Source: Nitrospinae bacterium RIFCSPHIGHO2_02_FULL_39_82
GTDB lineage: Bacteria > Nitrospinota > Nitrospinia > UBA9942
Length of the DNA stretch: 36,567 nt
Direction: 5' to 3'
NCBI GenBank assembly: GCA_001804915.1
Contig: MHDI01000026.1
Coordinates: 1-36,567, forward strand
Every line of letters starts with the position of its first letter. The stretch's first letter is position 1. The position numbers and the translations under genes were made by a program. A model generated the notes under the pieces. It made no database searches. It had not been told where the DNA came from and saw only the letters and a list, made by a program, of their open reading frames with translations. Positions 5,944 through 32,308 of the stretch are shown here, in pieces.

Positions 5944-6034
5944 GTGGAAAGCAATGAGGAAAAAACTTATTACTCATTGCTCATTGCTTATTGTTTGTTG
6001 CTCATTGCTTGTTGTTTGTTGCTCATTGCTTATT
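5937..6034. repeat. Heptamer-array cassette A (inverted arms)
   Basis: gcaatga gtggaaa gcaatga ggaaaaa, then ten consecutive 7-mers: acttatt actcatt gctcatt gcttatt gtttgtt gctcatt gcttgtt gtttgtt gctcatt gcttatt. Confidence 0.9.
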
Positions 6035-6039
6035 TTATT

Positions 6040-7581
6040 ATGTCATCTGAAATAATAGTTAATACTAATAGTTGGGAGACACGGGTAGCACTTTTAGAAA
6101 ATGGAGTTGTATCCGAACTCTATATTGAAAGGAAGAAGGACGAAGGTATTGTTGGTAATGTCTATAAAGGAAGGGTTGTGAAGATTCTCCCCGGGATGCA
6201 GGTGGCATTTGTGGATATAGGACTGGAGAAATCAGGTTTTCTTTATGTATCAGATATAAATCTACCAGACATAATAGGAGAATACGAAGAGATAGCAGGT
6301 AAAGAAGTATCTTTTCCAGATGAAGAGTCAACACAACCCGGCGAGGAGGTGATTTCGGAAGAATTCTTCCAGAGACCTCCGATTGAAGAATTACTGCAGG
6401 AGGGGCAGGAGATTCTGGTTCAGATTTCAAAGAACCCAATAGGGAATAAGGGGGCAAGGATTACATCTTATATCACACTGCCGGGACGGTATTTAGTATT
6501 TATGCCATCCGTAAATCAGATCGGGGTCTCCAGAAGGATAGATGATGAATCAGAAAGGAATAGACTCAAAAAATTACTTTTAGAGCTAAAGCCTCCGGGT
6601 TCTGGTTTCATTGTAAGGACTGCCAGTGAAGGCAGGGATAAAGATGAGTTTATAGCTGATATTGAGTTTCTGACGAAACTCTGGAATGACATAAAACAAA
6701 AGGCTGATAAGGTATCCGCACCCTTTCTTATCAATCAGGACCTTAACCTCATATTCAGAGTAATAAGAGACCTTTTTACAAAAGATGTTGACAGAATGGT
6801 GATAGATTCCCAGGAAGAATATGAAAGGTGTGTAAGATTTGCAGATTCCTATATGCCGGGCTTGAAATCACAAATTGAATTATATCCCGGGAAAGACCCC
6901 ATTTTTGATACCTATGGAATAGATATAGAAATAGAAAGGGCATTGGGCAGAAAGATATGGTTAAAATCCGGTGGTTATATAGTTATTGACCAGACAGAGG
7001 CACTAACCGCAGTAGATGTAAATACAGGAAAATTCGTAGGCAAGAGAAATCCCGAAGAGACCATTTTAAAAACCAATTTAGAGGCATTAAAAGAAATTGT
7101 TTATCAACTCCGTCTGAGAAACATAGGTGGTTTAATAATCATAGATTTTATAGATATGGAGAAAGAGGATAGTAAAGAGAAGGTATTTCATGCACTTGAG
7201 CAGGCATTGAAGACTGACAGGTCAAGGACAAAGATAATGAAAATATCTGAATTTGGTCTTGTGGAAATGACAAGGAAAAGGGTCAGAGATTCTTTAAGCC
7301 AAACACTCTGCCAGCCTTGTTTCTACTGCGAAGGGAGGGGAAATATAAAATCGCCTACCACTATATGTTATGAAATATTCCGGGAGATACAAAGGGTTAC
7401 AAATACCTCTCCCGCAAAGAGAAAGGTCCTCCTGAATGTCCCCCCTGTAATTGCGGATATGCTTTTTGATGAAGAGAGCCGCTATATAGATAGACTGGAG
7501 AATGATTTACAGGTGAAGATAGTTGTAAAAGCAGATTATGACCTTCATCAGGAGCAATATGAGATAACAGTATTGGCTTGA
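6040..7581 (+). CDS. rng: Ribonuclease E/G family protein
   Basis: MSSEIIVNTNSWETRVALLENGVVSELYIER, GNVYKGRVVKILPGMQVAFVDIGLEKSGFLY (S1), GGYIVIDQTEALTAVDVNTGKFVG, RNIGGLIIIDFIDM, CQPCFYCEGRG zinc-link region. Start placed at 6040 because upstream codons fall in the heptamer array. Confidence 0.93.
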   Translation: MSSEIIVNTNSWETRVALLENGVVSELYIERKKDEGIVGNVYKGRVVKILPGMQVAFVDIGLEKSGFLYVSDINLPDIIGEYEEIAGKEVSFPDEESTQPGEEVISEEFFQRPPIEELLQEGQEILVQISKNPIGNKGARITSYITLPGRYLVFMPSVNQIGVSRRIDDESERNRLKKLLLELKPPGSGFIVRTASEGRDKDEFIADIEFLTKLWNDIKQKADKVSAPFLINQDLNLIFRVIRDLFTKDVDRMVIDSQEEYERCVRFADSYMPGLKSQIELYPGKDPIFDTYGIDIEIERALGRKIWLKSGGYIVIDQTEALTAVDVNTGKFVGKRNPEETILKTNLEALKEIVYQLRLRNIGGLIIIDFIDMEKEDSKEKVFHALEQALKTDRSRTKIMKISEFGLVEMTRKRVRDSLSQTLCQPCFYCEGRGNIKSPTTICYEIFREIQRVTNTSPAKRKVLLNVPPVIADMLFDEESRYIDRLENDLQVKIVVKADYDLHQEQYEITVLA

Positions 7582-12651: not shown

Positions 12652-13752
12652 ATGTTTGGGACAAAGGATATTGTAGGACTTGATATAGGAAGCCATTCCA
12701 TAAAACTGGTTCGGCTAAAAAAGGGGAAGAAGGGGTTTGAACTCCTTAATTTCGGAATCATACCAATCCCGCCGGAGACAATTGTGGATGGACTAATAGA
12801 AAAACCTGAGATAGTAACAAATGCCATCAAGAATATCTTCAAAACAGAAAGGATTAAAACTAAAGAGGTCGTAACGGCAATATCCGGTGAGTCTGTCGTA
12901 ATAAAAAAGATAAATGTTCCCAAAATGACAGAGGATGAACTGGCAGAATCCATTAGGGTGGAGGCAGAGCAATATATCCCATTTGATATTGAGGAGGTAA
13001 ACTTAGATTTCCAGATTATAAAGGAAACCGGGGCCAAAGAAGCGGAGAAGGAGGAAACAGGAGAAGAGGGTGCACCAAAGGCAAACATGGATGTCCTTCT
13101 GGTGGCTGCAAGAAAGGAATTGGTAGAAGGGAGGAATAAACCCATCATTGATGCAGATTTAAAGCCTGTTATTGTTGATTTGGATGTATTTGCTATGGAA
13201 AATGGCTATGAATTCAATTATGGGGTTCCTGTCGGAGAAGTGCTTGTACTCGTAAATATAGGTGCCTCCTTTACAAATGTAAATATACTGGTAGATGGTG
13301 CCACAGAATATACAAAAGATATTACAGGCGGCGGCAATCGGATAAATCACGAACTTCAGAAAAACTTTAATATAGACTATGATACAGCGGAGAAGCTTAA
13401 GATGGGAATAGGATTAAACGGTACCTCCGAAAAGGATGTGGCTAATGTAATTATATCTGCCCTTGGAGAATTATCACATGATATAAATAAAATGTTTCAT
13501 GATTTTATAAAATCTACCGGTAAAAACATAAACCGGGTTATCCTGAGTGGCGGTTGCGCCAGAATTCATGGGATAGAAAAAATCCTGACAGAGAATTTTG
13601 ATATACCTACGGAGATAATTAATCCATACAAAAATATAAAGGTAAACCACAAGGTGTTCGACCCTCAATATATACAGGAGATGGCACCGTTAGCTGCTAT
13701 AGGTGTAGGGCTTGCTATGAGGAGATTAAAAGATAAGGCAAAGCCCTCGTAA
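12652..13752 (+). CDS. pilM: Type IV pilus assembly ATPase-fold protein PilM
   Basis: VGLDIGSHSIKLVRL, EAEQYIPFDIEEVNLDFQ, NRVILSGGCARIHGIEKIL; followed by pilN-pilQ. Confidence 0.93.
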   Translation: MFGTKDIVGLDIGSHSIKLVRLKKGKKGFELLNFGIIPIPPETIVDGLIEKPEIVTNAIKNIFKTERIKTKEVVTAISGESVVIKKINVPKMTEDELAESIRVEAEQYIPFDIEEVNLDFQIIKETGAKEAEKEETGEEGAPKANMDVLLVAARKELVEGRNKPIIDADLKPVIVDLDVFAMENGYEFNYGVPVGEVLVLVNIGASFTNVNILVDGATEYTKDITGGGNRINHELQKNFNIDYDTAEKLKMGIGLNGTSEKDVANVIISALGELSHDINKMFHDFIKSTGKNINRVILSGGCARIHGIEKILTENFDIPTEIINPYKNIKVNHKVFDPQYIQEMAPLAAIGVGLAMRRLKDKAKPS

Positions 13753-13770
13753 GATTCTTCATTTTATACC

Positions 13771-14349
13771 ATGATAAAGATAAATCTTATATTTGACAGG
13801 AAAGCCGTAGAGAGGGAGAAGACCAAACAGCAGTTATTATTAGGGGTGATTTTAATATTTATAACCATCGGCATAAGTGGTTTTTTGTGGTATTCTCAAA
13901 ATAAAAATATAGAAAATATTAATAAAAATATATCTGATTCAAAGGAAAAACTTGAAAAACTTAAATCAATTATCGACAAAATTAATGATAAGGAAAAAAA
14001 GAAAAAGAGGCTTGAAGAGATTGTAAAGGCAATAGGAGAATTGAAAAATACCCAGAAGGGACCAGCCAGAATTCTTGATAATATAAATATCATCCTCCCT
14101 TCTGAAATATGGCTTATATCACTCTCTGAAGGTAGTGGACAGATAAAAATGGATGGTTTTTCATTTTCAAATCCAAGTATAGCAACATTCATGGAGAATA
14201 TAAAGGCGTCAAGATATTTCTCAGATGCAGAACTTCTTGAAATTCAACAGACAACTATAGAAGGGGAAAAGGTAAAAAAATTCACTTTAAATATTACCCT
14301 TAATTTATCCCCGGAAGAGAAAGTGCAGCAAATGGAAGAGGGTCGTTAA
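13771..14349 (+). CDS. pilN: Type IV pilus assembly protein PilN
   Basis: MIKINL start, single TM, coiled coil, LPSEIWLISLS motif; position in pilMNOPQ. Confidence 0.9.
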   Translation: MIKINLIFDRKAVEREKTKQQLLLGVILIFITIGISGFLWYSQNKNIENINKNISDSKEKLEKLKSIIDKINDKEKKKKRLEEIVKAIGELKNTQKGPARILDNINIILPSEIWLISLSEGSGQIKMDGFSFSNPSIATFMENIKASRYFSDAELLEIQQTTIEGEKVKKFTLNITLNLSPEEKVQQMEEGR

Positions 14350-14351
14350 AA

Positions 14352-14972
14352 ATGGAGCAACTGAAAAAGATTTTAGAAAAAATACCATATGATAGAATTG
14401 CAGCCTTTCCAGCCTATCAGCGATGGATTGTCATTCTTGTAATACAGATATTGATTTTCACAGCCTATTATTTTTTAATTCAACGCAGCAGGGCTGAAGA
14501 AATCTCAAGGTTAAATGGGGAACTGTCTAATCTTCAGCAGGAGATTGTAAAGAGCTCAAAGGTTGCAAAGAGATTACCCGCACTTGAAAAGGAGATAGAG
14601 AATATAGATACACAATTGGCAATTGCAAGAGCTCATTTGCCTGAAGAAAAAGAGATACCAGGACTTCTGACATCAATTTCAAATCTCGCTATGCAATCAG
14701 GACTGGATATCCTTGTTTTTAAACCGGGGGTAGAAAGTCGAAAGGATTTCTATGCAGAGGTTCCTGTTCAGATAAAAACAAATGGCGGTTTTCATAATAC
14801 ACTGGAATTTTTTGATAAGGTTAGCAAGATGCCCCGAATTGTTACAATCTCAAATGTAAAGATGGGTAATGCAAGGGAGGAGAAAGGGAGGACAGTCATT
14901 GAGATGGACTGTTTTGCTACCACATTCAGGTATATGGAGAAACCTCCCGAACAAAAGGTGGAGAAGAAATGA
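14352..14972 (+). CDS. pilO: Type IV pilus assembly protein PilO
   Basis: Single TM and coiled coil, LPEEKEIPGLLTSISNLAMQSGLDI motif; operon position. Confidence 0.9.
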   Translation: MEQLKKILEKIPYDRIAAFPAYQRWIVILVIQILIFTAYYFLIQRSRAEEISRLNGELSNLQQEIVKSSKVAKRLPALEKEIENIDTQLAIARAHLPEEKEIPGLLTSISNLAMQSGLDILVFKPGVESRKDFYAEVPVQIKTNGGFHNTLEFFDKVSKMPRIVTISNVKMGNAREEKGRTVIEMDCFATTFRYMEKPPEQKVEKK

Positions 14973-15553
14973 AATTACAATTTTTACCACACACCGCTTT
15001 TCACCTTTTAGTTTATATCTTCTTGTGCTATACTCAATCTGCATATGGAGCAGAAGATAAAACTGTTGGCTTGCCACCAAACAGCGTTTCTGCAGAAAAA
15101 ACGGAAGATACTCAATCCCCCAAAGGGCAGATTTTTCAAGTAGATGAATATATATACAACCCGACTGGCAAAGTTGACCCTTTCAGGTCTGTTATACTCG
15201 GTAAAAAGGAAGAGGAAAAATTAGAAGAGGAAAGGAAAAAAATTGAAGAGGTAAAAGAGGAAGAGAGATTCAAAAAAGAACTGGAAAATGTCCCTATGAC
15301 TCCTTTACAAGAATTTGATGTATCCTCAATAAAAGTAGTTGCAATAATGTGGGGAGACATAGGTAAATATGCACTTGTTGAAGCCCCTGATGGAAAAGGC
15401 TATACAATAAAGAGAGGGACATACATAGGTAAGGGGAGGGGGATTGTAAAAGAGATAGGTAATGAAGTGCTTATAATTGAGGAAAAATATATAGATGTGG
15501 ATAAGAAAATAAAGACAAGAGTTGTTGAATTAAAATTAAAGAAGGGGGAGTAG
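14969..15553 (+). CDS. pilP: Type IV pilus assembly lipoprotein-like PilP
   Basis: GKVDPFRS and TPLQEFDVSSIKVVAIMWG...ALVEAPDGKGYTIKRGTYIGKGRGIVKEI are PilP motifs. Confidence 0.9.
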   Translation: MKLQFLPHTAFHLLVYIFLCYTQSAYGAEDKTVGLPPNSVSAEKTEDTQSPKGQIFQVDEYIYNPTGKVDPFRSVILGKKEEEKLEEERKKIEEVKEEERFKKELENVPMTPLQEFDVSSIKVVAIMWGDIGKYALVEAPDGKGYTIKRGTYIGKGRGIVKEIGNEVLIIEEKYIDVDKKIKTRVVELKLKKGE

Positions 15554-15557
15554 GATA

Positions 15558-15676
15558 AAAATGCAAAATGCAAAATGCAAAATGCAAAATTTAAATGAAG
15601 GAAGTAAAGGCTTCTTATTTTTTATTCCTTACTTCTTGCTTCTTACTTCTTACTTCTTACTTCTGGCTTCTGGCTG
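15558..15676. repeat. Heptamer-array cassette G spanning the pilQ start and signal peptide
   Basis: aaaatgc x4, then in the same 7-nt phase cttactt cttgctt cttactt cttactt cttactt ctggctt ctggctg. Confidence 0.9.
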
Positions 15677-17771
15677 TGCTACCCCAAAAGCAGAGGTAAA
15701 AAAGAGTGATATTCCTTCCTCCACACAAGTAGTCCAAGAAAAAACAGAAACAAAAGAAGAAGAGAAGGGGTCTATTATAAATATTCAGACAGAGGTTTTG
15801 CCGGAGGCAACTCAGCTTACAGTGGAGGCAGACAACCTGCTTCAATATACAGCCTTTAAATTGCAGGACCCTCTTAGATTAATTCTTGAATTATCCAACA
15901 TAGACCCTGGAACAATAAAAGGGCCAATAGAGGTTGAAAAAGGGGTTATTGGAACTATCAACCTTTATTATTTCCCTCAGAACAATACCTCAAGGATTGA
16001 GATCGGACTCAAATCTCATACACCTCATGAGATATTAAAACCCTCACCCAATAAACTGATAGTCTCCATAAAAAATCCAGAAGAAAAAAAGGCTGAAAAA
16101 ACTGGTGAAATAGCTTCTACAGAAGAAGCTGTAATTATGGTGAGAGATGTGGAAATTCAGAAGATTGCAGATAAAACAAGGGTAATTGTAAAGACAGAGG
16201 GTGGGGAGCCAAAATTCAGCCTTATAAAGAAAGATGAATTAAAAAGACTCTCAATAGAGATAGAAAATGCCACCATATCACCACAGGGGCAGAAGGCTCT
16301 GGATACTTCGCAGGTATCAGCCTTTGTAAAAAGGGTAAGTTCATTTCAGCATAAAGATAAATTAGTAAGGGTGATAGCAGAATTGACAGATATCTCTTCT
16401 TATAACATATCCCGTGAAGGTACTAATATTATACTCGACATAGAACCACCGGGGGCTGAAGGAGAGGCAAAAAAGATAGAAACAAAAGAGATGGCTGCAG
16501 GAGAAACAAAGAAGGCCGAAGCACTTCCAGGGGAGAAGAAGTATGAAGGCAAGAAGATATCGCTCGATTTTCAGGATGCAGATATAAACAATATAATCAG
16601 ACTCATCGCAGAGGTTAGCGACTTGAACATAATAACCACAGAGGATGTAAAAGGAAAAGTAACAATGAGGCTGATAAGTATTCCATGGGACCAGGCACTG
16701 GATATTATATTGAAGACAAATAAACTCGACATGGTAAGGGAGGGAAATATTATAAGAATTGCACCTGCCACAGCCATAGCAGAAGAGAGAAAATCATTAA
16801 TGGAGGCAAAGAGGGCTGTAATAGAAAGTAAAATTGTTGAAGAAGAGGTTGAAGAACTTGTCACAGAGAGCCTCTCCATAAGCTATGCAAAGGCAGGGGA
16901 ACTGACAAAAAATCTGGAAAAGATAAAGAGTAAGCGGGGCGATATTACAATAGATGACAGAACCAACACAATTATAGTTAAGGATACAAAGAAAAAATTA
17001 GCCGATATGAAATTGCTAATTGAAAAACTTGATAAAAGGACTCCGCAGGTTCTTATAGAGGCGAGAATAGTAGAGGTCAACAGGAACTTTTCAAAGGAAT
17101 TGGGAATCCAGTGGGGCGGGGGTCTTAATATGACAACAGATGCTAATTTCCCGAATACAATTGGCATTACAGGAAGCTCTGTCGGTACAAGTGCCGTGAG
17201 CCTCCCTGCTGCTGCCGGAACTGGAACCGGAGGTGCAATAAGTGCGACACTCGGCAGTGTAACAGGGGCAAGTCAACTTGATATTCGTCTATCAGCTTTA
17301 GAGTCATCAGGTAGGGCAAGGATAATTTCTACACCCAAGATAACTGCCTCCGATAACAAAGAAGCTGTAATTGAGAGCGGCAGAAGCATACCCTATCCAA
17401 CTACCTCTTCAGCAGGAACCCAGGTTCAATTTATTGATGCCACGGTAAGCCTGACGGTAACACCACATATCACACCTGACAATTATATCTCCATGAAGAT
17501 AGTGGCCACAAAGAATGAGGCAGATTTTGGACAACAGGTTCAGGGAACACCGAGTATAATCAAAAAGAAGGCCACCACAGAGGTTTTGATAAAGGATGGG
17601 GATACAACTGTCATCGGTGGTCTGTATAAAACAACAAAACAGGAGAGTGTGGCAGGGGTCCCATGGTTTATGAAGATACCTGTAATAGGCTGGCTGTTTA
17701 AAAAGAAAGCTGATACGGATCTTGGCGAGGAATTATTGATATTTATTACACCGAAGATAATAAAGACATAA
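15561..17771 (+). CDS. pilQ: Type IV pilus secretin PilQ
   Basis: AMIN domains, KKISLDFQDADINNIIRLIAEVSDLNII, secretin domain (VLIEARIVEVNRNFSKELGIQWG ... VPWFMKIPVIGWLFKKK). Confidence 0.95.
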   Translation: MQNAKCKMQNLNEGSKGFLFFIPYFLLLTSYFLLLASGCATPKAEVKKSDIPSSTQVVQEKTETKEEEKGSIINIQTEVLPEATQLTVEADNLLQYTAFKLQDPLRLILELSNIDPGTIKGPIEVEKGVIGTINLYYFPQNNTSRIEIGLKSHTPHEILKPSPNKLIVSIKNPEEKKAEKTGEIASTEEAVIMVRDVEIQKIADKTRVIVKTEGGEPKFSLIKKDELKRLSIEIENATISPQGQKALDTSQVSAFVKRVSSFQHKDKLVRVIAELTDISSYNISREGTNIILDIEPPGAEGEAKKIETKEMAAGETKKAEALPGEKKYEGKKISLDFQDADINNIIRLIAEVSDLNIITTEDVKGKVTMRLISIPWDQALDIILKTNKLDMVREGNIIRIAPATAIAEERKSLMEAKRAVIESKIVEEEVEELVTESLSISYAKAGELTKNLEKIKSKRGDITIDDRTNTIIVKDTKKKLADMKLLIEKLDKRTPQVLIEARIVEVNRNFSKELGIQWGGGLNMTTDANFPNTIGITGSSVGTSAVSLPAAAGTGTGGAISATLGSVTGASQLDIRLSALESSGRARIISTPKITASDNKEAVIESGRSIPYPTTSSAGTQVQFIDATVSLTVTPHITPDNYISMKIVATKNEADFGQQVQGTPSIIKKKATTEVLIKDGDTTVIGGLYKTTKQESVAGVPWFMKIPVIGWLFKKKADTDLGEELLIFITPKIIKT

Positions 17772-17777
17772 AATAAA

Positions 17778-17856
17778 GCAATGAGCAACGAGCAATGAGT
17801 TCGAAGGAGAATTATTTCTGTACTCATTACTCATTACTCATTGCTCATTGCTAAAT
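17778..17856. repeat. Heptamer-array cassette B (inverted arms)
   Basis: gcaatga gcaacga gcaatga ... actcatt actcatt actcatt gctcatt gctaaat; same unit as cassette A. Confidence 0.9.
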
Positions 17857-25030: not shown

Positions 25031-25105
25031 TAACTACAAACCAACCACTAACAACTAACCACTATTATTGGTTGTAAGTTGTAAGTTGTAGGTTGTAAGT
25101 TTTCT
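25031..25105. repeat. Heptamer-array cassette E (inverted arms) filling the rny-ymdB gap
   Basis: taactac aaaccaa ccactaa caactaa ccactat ... gttgtaa gttgtaa gttgtag gttgtaa gttttct. Confidence 0.85.
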
Positions 25106-31120: not shown

Positions 31121-32230
31121 ATGAACGAAAAATATATGAGGCAGGCTATAGAGCTCGCCCTTAAAGCAAAAGGGGAAACAAGCCCAAATCCAATGGTTGG
31201 GGCTGTAATTATAAAAGAAGGTAAGGTCATTGGAGAGGGCTACCATAAAAAGGCAGGAACCCCTCATGCGGAAATTAATGCCCTTAATGCAGCAGGTAAA
31301 AATGCTAAAGGTGGAATAATGTATGTTAATCTCGAACCCTGTTGCCATCAGGGGAGGACCCCTCCATGCACAAAGTCGCTGATAAAGAGTGGTTTAAAAA
31401 GGGTAGTTGTTGGTATGACTGACCCTAATCCACTTGTATCGGGTAAAGGAATAAAGGAACTAAAAGAGGGGGAGGTTCAGGTTTCAGCAGGGCTTTTAGA
31501 GAAAGAATGTAAAAGACTCAATGAGGTTTATATTAAATACATAACTACGGGAATGCCTTTCGTTCTTTTAAAGGTTGCTATGAGCCTCGACGGAAAGATA
31601 GCCACATGCTCAAGGGAGTCTAAGTGGATAACAGGTAAGTCTTCAAGAGAGCAGGTTCACAAGTTAAGAGATGAGGTTGATGCAGTAATGGTAGGAATAG
31701 GGACGATATTACAGGATAATCCAAACCTCACTGTTGCTTTAAAAAGAAAGAGGGGAAAGAACCCGATTAGGATAATTGTTGACAGCAATTTAAGGATTCC
31801 CCTTGATGCAAATGTACTTAAAGTTTCTTCTCGTACCAGCAGGAGTTCCAAACCGGAAATCATAATCGCCACCACAAAGAGGGCGGATACAAAAAAATTA
31901 AACTCCCTGATGGAAAAGGGGATTGATGTTATGATAACGGAAGATGATAACCAGAGGGTCAATCTTTCAAAATTAATGTATGAACTTGGAAAACGGGGAA
32001 TTACCAATTTACTTATAGAGGGTGGGTCCGAACTTAATTCATCTGCCTTGAAATCGGGTATAGTTGACAAAGTAATATTTTTTATTGCCCCGCGGATTAT
32101 AGGTGGAAAGGATGGTATATCTGCTGTAGGGGGGAAAGGGATTGAAAGGTTGGAAGATTCTTTGAATATCAGTGAAGTAACTTTGGATAAAATTGGGAGT
32201 GATATTGTTGTTGAAGGATACCTGAAATGA
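31121..32230 (+). CDS. ribD: Bifunctional riboflavin deaminase/reductase RibD
   Basis: SPNPMVGAVIIKEGKVIGEGYHKKAGTPHAEINAL, VNLEPCCHQGRTPPCTKSLIKSGLKRVVVGMTDPNPLVSGKGI, VAMSLDGKIAT. Confidence 0.97.
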   Translation: MNEKYMRQAIELALKAKGETSPNPMVGAVIIKEGKVIGEGYHKKAGTPHAEINALNAAGKNAKGGIMYVNLEPCCHQGRTPPCTKSLIKSGLKRVVVGMTDPNPLVSGKGIKELKEGEVQVSAGLLEKECKRLNEVYIKYITTGMPFVLLKVAMSLDGKIATCSRESKWITGKSSREQVHKLRDEVDAVMVGIGTILQDNPNLTVALKRKRGKNPIRIIVDSNLRIPLDANVLKVSSRTSRSSKPEIIIATTKRADTKKLNSLMEKGIDVMITEDDNQRVNLSKLMYELGKRGITNLLIEGGSELNSSALKSGIVDKVIFFIAPRIIGGKDGISAVGGKGIERLEDSLNISEVTLDKIGSDIVVEGYLK

Positions 32231-32308
32231 GTTAGGAGTTATGAGTTATGAGGAAAATCCCGAAACCTTTCCCCTCTAAACTCCAAACTCAATAACTCAA
32301 TACTTAAA
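32231..32308. repeat. Heptamer-array cassette C (inverted arms) filling the ribD-ribE gap
   Basis: gttagga gttatga gttatga ggaaaat ... cctctaa actccaa actcaat a actcaat acttaaa. Confidence 0.85.

Follow-up and report, generated by a model that had tools for sequence, protein, structure and literature searches.

The pilQ locus and its heptamer arrays

The window analyzed here, a 36,567-nucleotide stretch of the genome of the uncultured Nitrospinae bacterium RIFCSPHIGHO2_02_FULL_39_82 (G000), harbors a pilMNOPQ operon spanning positions 12652-17771, in which Pfam matches place pilMNOP (12652-15553) upstream of pilQ (Table 1). The translation of the open reading frame at 15561-17771 reads MQNAKCKMQNLNEGSKGFLFFIPYFLLLTSYFLLLASGC-ATPK... 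and its first ATG sits in the first unit of an AAAATGC array, which also contains a second in-frame ATG at 15582 and two out-of-frame ATGs. The same layout of Shine-Dalgarno sequence and ATG is found at three further loci (L002, L003 and L004). Stop codons in the spacer that follows terminate the other two frames entering from the ATG array. The second array, called by Tandem Repeats Finder (TRF) at 15611-15671/15675, is composed of the units CTTCTTA, TTTTTTA, TTCCTTA, CTTCTTG, CTTCTTA (three times) and CTTCTGG (twice), followed by CTG.

Table 1. Features of the pilMNOPQ operon and of the arrays associated with pilQ in the window
Feature	Position	Strand	Evidence
pilM	12652-13752	+	Pfam PilM_2
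pilN	13771-14349	+	Pfam PilN
pilO	14352-14972	+	Pfam PilO
pilP	14969-15553	+	Pfam PilP
Shine-Dalgarno region GGGGGAGTAGG, overlapping the pilP end, with ATG 15561 downstream	15544-15554	+	Read from sequence
AAAATGC array (4.7 copies), n-region MQNAKCKMQN	15558-15590	+	TRF score 66, 100% match; start-codon and frame table
pilQ secretin, putative lipoprotein, 736 aa	15561-17771	+	Pfam Secretin (9.6e-50), AMIN, STN, Secretin_N
Non-repetitive 20-base spacer encoding LNEGSKG	15591-15610	+	Frame table
Pyrimidine heptamer array of the CTTCTTA type, hydrophobic core FLFFIPYFLLLTSYFLLLASG	15611-15674	+	TRF, period-7 score, unit list
Lipobox Cys codon TGT (LASG-C)	15675-15677	+	Invariant column C39 of alignment A1; pattern check
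Intergenic heptamer arrays 3' of pilQ (AGCAATG ... TACTCAT), non-coding, same repeat class	17777-17852	.	TRF, array scan

A sequence-only reading of this DNA had proposed that the AAAATGC units supply the pilQ start codon and that the pyrimidine array encodes a signal peptide ending in a lipobox. Both proposals hold, since the array matches its unit perfectly, ATG 15561 and ATG 15582 are the sole in-frame ATGs upstream of the core, and the pyrimidine array runs up to the Cys codon with a period-7 score of 29. The clean part of that array comes after three degenerate units. The "good lipobox" of the same reading is acceptable rather than textbook: with Ala at -3, it matches a PROSITE PS00013-type pattern and fails the strict [LVI][ASTVI][GAS]C pattern.

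The periodicity is specific, for the pilQ leader scores only 3-4 at periods 4-6 and 8-11. Low complexity is usual in signal-peptide cores, and amino-acid selection for a core rich in Leu and Phe might by chance mimic a repeat. Yet no shuffle, among 5000 of synonymous codons and 5000 of codon order, reached the score of the G000 leader, the same null outcome (0/5000 in each) was obtained for the leaders of G001 and G003, there is no excess at other periods, and the leader of an order-level outgroup (G006) stays at chance level. The DNA repeat is therefore not forced by the PilQ amino-acid sequence, and a chance origin, which would be most implausible, is rejected by the shuffle tests.

No in-frame ATG, GTG or TTG occurs upstream of 15561, and the only start candidates between it and the Cys codon are ATG 15582, in the AAAATGC array, and TTG 15636, inside the core; hence, if PilQ is exported, its start must lie in the array. 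A start downstream, leaving the array untranslated, has a likely precedent in the RNase G/E open reading frame at 5944-7581, where an array (5966-6034) lies in a 5' open extension reading the hydrophobic LLIAYCLLLIACCLLLIAY (5944-6034), the orthologs share a start, M(S/G)SEIIV, after the array and the G003 ortholog has no array at that place. In PilQ, on the contrary, the array is the only hydrophobic core available to a protein that needs an export signal, the lipobox Cys is invariant within the family and in G006, and TTG 15636 is the sole start codon between array and Cys. A downstream start, which the sequence-only reading had named as a refutation of its proposal, is thus ruled against if PilQ is exported, and we regard it as very improbable. 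As for RNase G, its array is most likely untranslated, to judge from the orthologous starts. The idea that it codes for a membrane anchor was set aside on the same grounds, and automated gene calling could give this protein a spurious membrane anchor.

PilQ leaders in related genomes

PilQ was searched for in 60 genomes, including that of the window, and matches were obtained in 57. A scan of genome contigs returned only distant PilQs (best segment at most 56% identical, top match 52%), and the same-family orthologs came from the search across genomes. The full-length proteins recovered are 69-73% identical and carry the leaders MQNAKCKMQNAKCKRQEARGRKKLYIAYCLLLTAYCILSSSGC (G001), MQNAECRMQNIVSRKQYSARMIFTVYCLLFTAYFLSGC (G003), MQKLEVRSQKPEVRKEGFLIFTAYCLLLTAYFFSGC (G004) and MYEDVRSKRWEIMNKCLLYYLSYPLCLTFCLFLIFSGC (G002). 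Their core units are CTTACTG in G001, TTTACTG in G003 and a mixture of CTTACTG and TTTATTG in G004, and their n-region units AAAATGC, AGAATGC and AGAAGTC, respectively, with period-7 scores of 43 (G001), 24 (G003), 16 (G004) and 8 (G002). The G002 core, the score of which was reached by 7/5000 and 59/5000 shuffles in the two nulls, looks like a degenerate array. The leader is consequently not private to the PilQ of one genome: the ortholog alignment reveals array-coded leaders in G001, G003 and G004 and a degenerate one in G002.

Outside the family, the PilQ leader of the order-level G006 has a period-7 score of 5, at chance level, and both G006 and the class-level G014, G007 and G011 present ordinary, non-repetitive, short lipoprotein-like leaders that end at the equivalent Cys. 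The lipobox Cys39, invariant within the family and G006 (alignment A1), is a conserved anchor common to array-free relatives, and PilQ leaders in other families of the class are without it. Given that array-free leaders at the order and class levels end at the equivalent Cys, the leader with its predicted lipid anchor is older than the array, a family trait that overwrote it. The notion of a repeat cassette turned export signal of a secretin accordingly stands insofar as the arrays encode start, n-region and core, and falls insofar as an existing leader was overwritten and not created. Since the units are largely in register across the ortholog alignment, a single array gain with concerted change is favored over repeated gains. 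The repeat units of the leader differ from species to species, putatively through slippage or homogenization, whereas its charge, its hydrophobicity and the Cys are conserved.

Two regulatory readings bear on this leader, and both phase variation and RNA-hairpin control of pilQ are possible. Because seven is not a multiple of three, slippage of heptamers shifts the frame, and arrays located within the coding region, where the gene for a surface machine begins, might mainly serve to switch PilQ on and off, in the manner of the heptanucleotide repeats controlling phase variation of HMW1A in Haemophilus influenzae (PMC8262952). The frame of ATG 15595 (MKEVKASYFLFLTSCFLLLTSYFWLLA...), which reads a second plausible signal peptide, would be joined to PilQ by one extra pyrimidine unit; the third frame is served by no start. 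Nonetheless, the frame is intact in each of the four full-length orthologs of the family, no Shine-Dalgarno sequence accompanies ATG 15595, and similar arrays reside in housekeeping exported proteins, in AroE and in other internal enzymes, for which switching is hard to rationalize. We therefore consider a main role in phase variation unlikely, and frame buffering or phase variation through ATG 15595 can be imagined but is unsupported.

Alternatively, selection might act on RNA, the purine and pyrimidine arrays pairing as a hairpin that hides the Shine-Dalgarno sequence and tunes translation, with the peptide as a by-product. The minimum free energy structure for G000 does pair the Shine-Dalgarno sequence with the pyrimidine array, and fold z-scores are negative for pilQ in G000 (-1.8), G001 (-2.9) and G003 (-2.9), as opposed to +0.65 in the array-free G006, and for the leaders of a lytic transglycosylase (-3.9) and a TPR/FGE lipoprotein (-3.3). 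The G000 pilQ value is nonetheless weak, 9 of 200 shuffles being equally stable; purine and pyrimidine arrays pair through composition alone; and hydrophobicity and Cys are kept while the units change. The predicted folds leave room for an RNA role of leader hairpins, and it is just as doubtful as for phase variation that such a role is what the arrays are selected for.

Dispersed heptamer arrays and other leaders

A portion of G000 amounting to 351 kb contains 35 period-7 arrays, against 0-3 at each of periods 4-6 and 8-13, and 13 arrays at period 14, a multiple of 7. The source assembly is an 86% complete draft of 107 contigs, and arrays are prone to assembly error; the intact frames kept by several related genomes argue against an artefact. 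Unit searches indicate that the leader units belong to sets dispersed in the same genomes, as illustrated by YTTACTG in G001 (109 matches versus 4 for the reversed control). Arrays of ATGCARA occur in all six genomes of family f1 searched and in 0/6 other genomes of that search, and AAGAAGC arrays in 5/6 genomes of family f1 and in none of the 71 other genomes, so that within the phylum this type was found only in that family. In G011, from another family, 33 YTTACTG matches coexist with an array-free PilQ leader, and G007 presents 24 matches to the reversed control pattern; judging from these two, array-rich genomes are not restricted to one family of the phylum. Unit sequences vary between sites and between orthologs, with no common consensus element.

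In the sampled G000 DNA, 27 arrays are intergenic and 50 overlap called genes, as counted with simple codon-usage gene calls and with some contigs chosen for their arrays. Roughly complementary, hairpin-like pairs of heptamer-type arrays lie between genes of the window at 17777-17852 (AGCAATG/TACTCAT), 25039-25101 (AACTAAC/GTTGTAA) and 32227-32302 (ATGAGTT/AACTCAAT).

Of 97 secreted-like leaders sampled from G000, 9 have a period-7 array, the RNase G case among them being false, and none has an array at the remaining periods between 4 and 13. Sample A included contigs picked for array matches; the unselected sample B by itself has just 2 array-coded leaders among 40, and none of 20 secreted-like leaders in G006 has a period-7 array. 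Read in frame, the arrays yield signal peptides such as MQNAKCKMQNAESKNIEARGKRQDILFLSSCFLLLTSCFLLFAPPVQAKGEK in G000 and, ahead of a LysM domain, MQNRRIVTSLFWLLASGFWLLASGFWLLADTASAEE in G003. According to domain searches, the array-led proteins comprise SurA-like PPIases, a lytic transglycosylase, an EB_dh/cytochrome c protein, a multihaem cytochrome and two proteins with FGE-sulfatase domains, and their conserved mature domains come after the array-coded leaders. Arrays are also present in the prepilin leaders of a T2SSG protein and a pseudopilin-like protein (G001, G002). Pseudopilin leader peptides lengthened by heptamer arrays (MQNAKCKMQN...RQSSIVNSQRGFTLIELL) were observed at L220 (1501-1956, contig C364 of G001) and at L194 (contig C99 of G002). 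In the lytic transglycosylase the PilQ pattern recurs, with array leaders in G000, G001 and G005 whose units vary, a weaker array in G002 and no array in the plain G006 leader. A cytochrome provides a clear contrast, its leader being array-coded in G000 and plain in the 86%-identical G003 ortholog. With several exported proteins led by arrays, the phenomenon is a property of the repeat class and not of the secretin.

Leader-core arrays mostly encode peptides with Kyte-Doolittle values of about 1.8-3.1, exceptions including FTIHHSP in one SurA-like protein (0.19), and n-region arrays range from -1.6 to -3.0. In-frame arrays also occur inside conserved protein genes, as seen for AroE in an alignment and for others in their translations, and these internal arrays code mostly for hydrophilic heptapeptides (median -0.57, maximum 1.31). 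The AroE of G001 carries a different repeat (KLKAQSS) at the equivalent site. A putative HypF-like open reading frame (L070, 17393-19783 of contig C11 of G000) contains three distinct in-frame arrays (QGSGVRSQES, LITHHSSLIT and LQVTSYKLQ), and in genomes of family f1 in-frame arrays apparently lie within a putative glycosyltransferase, a putative MutL-like protein and a putative alpha/beta hydrolase (L199, L197 and L207).

Known systems and a proposed origin of the leader

Heptameric repeats are over-represented in bacteria and mostly intergenic, and those of Nostoc, Calothrix and Xanthomonas (STRR) show extensive length and sequence variation among related strains (PMC4692102). The arrays described here resemble them in being dispersed seven-base tandem units arranged head to tail, with many copies (35 in 351 kb). 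However, most STRR lie between genes (in Xanthomonas, 7-11% are genic) and they belong to a single G-rich type (PMC4692102), whereas here there are many unit types, many of them in frame within coding sequence and the hydrophobic ones at leaders. The TAACTGA direct repeats of marine Beggiatoaceae, known in open (LSVISYQ) and closed orientation, are likewise dispersed heptamer arrays near gene starts, but most of them precede start codons, where a role in translation has been proposed for them, and the term 'signal peptide' is absent from the text describing them (PMC4679880). In-frame selfish palindromes have been described in Rickettsia, Wolbachia and Methanocaldococcus (work cited in PMC2996958). 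Rickettsia palindromic elements and the PARCEL coding palindromes share with our arrays the in-frame presence of repetitive DNA in tolerant segments of housekeeping genes, often with dyad symmetry, but they form defined families (PMC2996958); the sites reported here, also in frame within conserved genes, have only the 7-nt period in common and also form export signals. Finally, lipoprotein secretins such as HxcQ and BfpB are known (reviewed in PMC4471445), and PilQ, with a secretin domain architecture and a lipoprotein signal peptide bearing a PS00013-type lipobox Cys, is predicted to resemble them in having its own N-terminal lipid anchor; it differs in that the signal peptide of this anchor is coded by tandem repeats. 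No report of heptamer arrays as bacterial signal peptides or as coding heptamers was found in the literature searched, a weak negative because the search covered mainly papers outside subscription journals.

The origin of new signal peptides, which are short and degenerate sequences, is an open question. The reading we hold to be very probable is that dispersed heptamer arrays have overwritten the coding DNA of an old lipoprotein signal peptide, the pilQ leader, and that stop-free arrays act as ready-made signal peptides that are repeatedly replaced. If one frame of a heptamer array is free of stop codons, so are the other two, and each frame reads the same circular heptapeptide. Purine-rich arrays (AAAATGC, AGAAGCA) provide an initiation codon together with an n-region that is basic or polar and rich in Lys, Arg and Gln, and pyrimidine-rich ones (CTTCTTA, CTTACTG, TTTACTG, TCTTGCC) h-regions rich in Leu, Phe and Tyr, pyrimidine units giving in general peptides rich in Leu, Phe, Ser and Cys. 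Owing to this frame-independence and composition, a purine arm followed by a pyrimidine arm may work as a signal peptide. Translation of PilQ would begin within the first array, at ATG 15561 (or 15582), and the h-region encoded by the second array would engage the Sec machinery; signal peptidase II would then cleave before Cys39 and the lipidated Cys would take the secretin toward the outer membrane as a self-piloted 'liposecretin'. More generally, dispersed arrays may land or grow in tolerant coding segments and overwrite them, and leaders would tolerate them because the main constraints on a leader concern its charge, its hydrophobicity and its cleavage site.

As a bolder and more tentative proposal, purine and pyrimidine arrays might constitute a self-propagating source of signal peptides that recurrently replaces the leaders of orthologous exported proteins in one family, such leaders being reborn from microsatellite DNA and not passed on by ordinary descent. 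Since orthologs present different units, and sometimes none, at one site, leader replacement becomes directly traceable and testable. For annotation, these results carry the warning that 'unique' leaders may be repeats and that 5' arrays can mislead start-site calls, as with RNase G. In this family the source DNA of signal peptides is visible, in the form of frame-independent heptamer arrays the two strand compositions of which encode a basic n-region and a hydrophobic core, suggesting that junk-like repeats can become, and continue to be remade as, protein-targeting signals.
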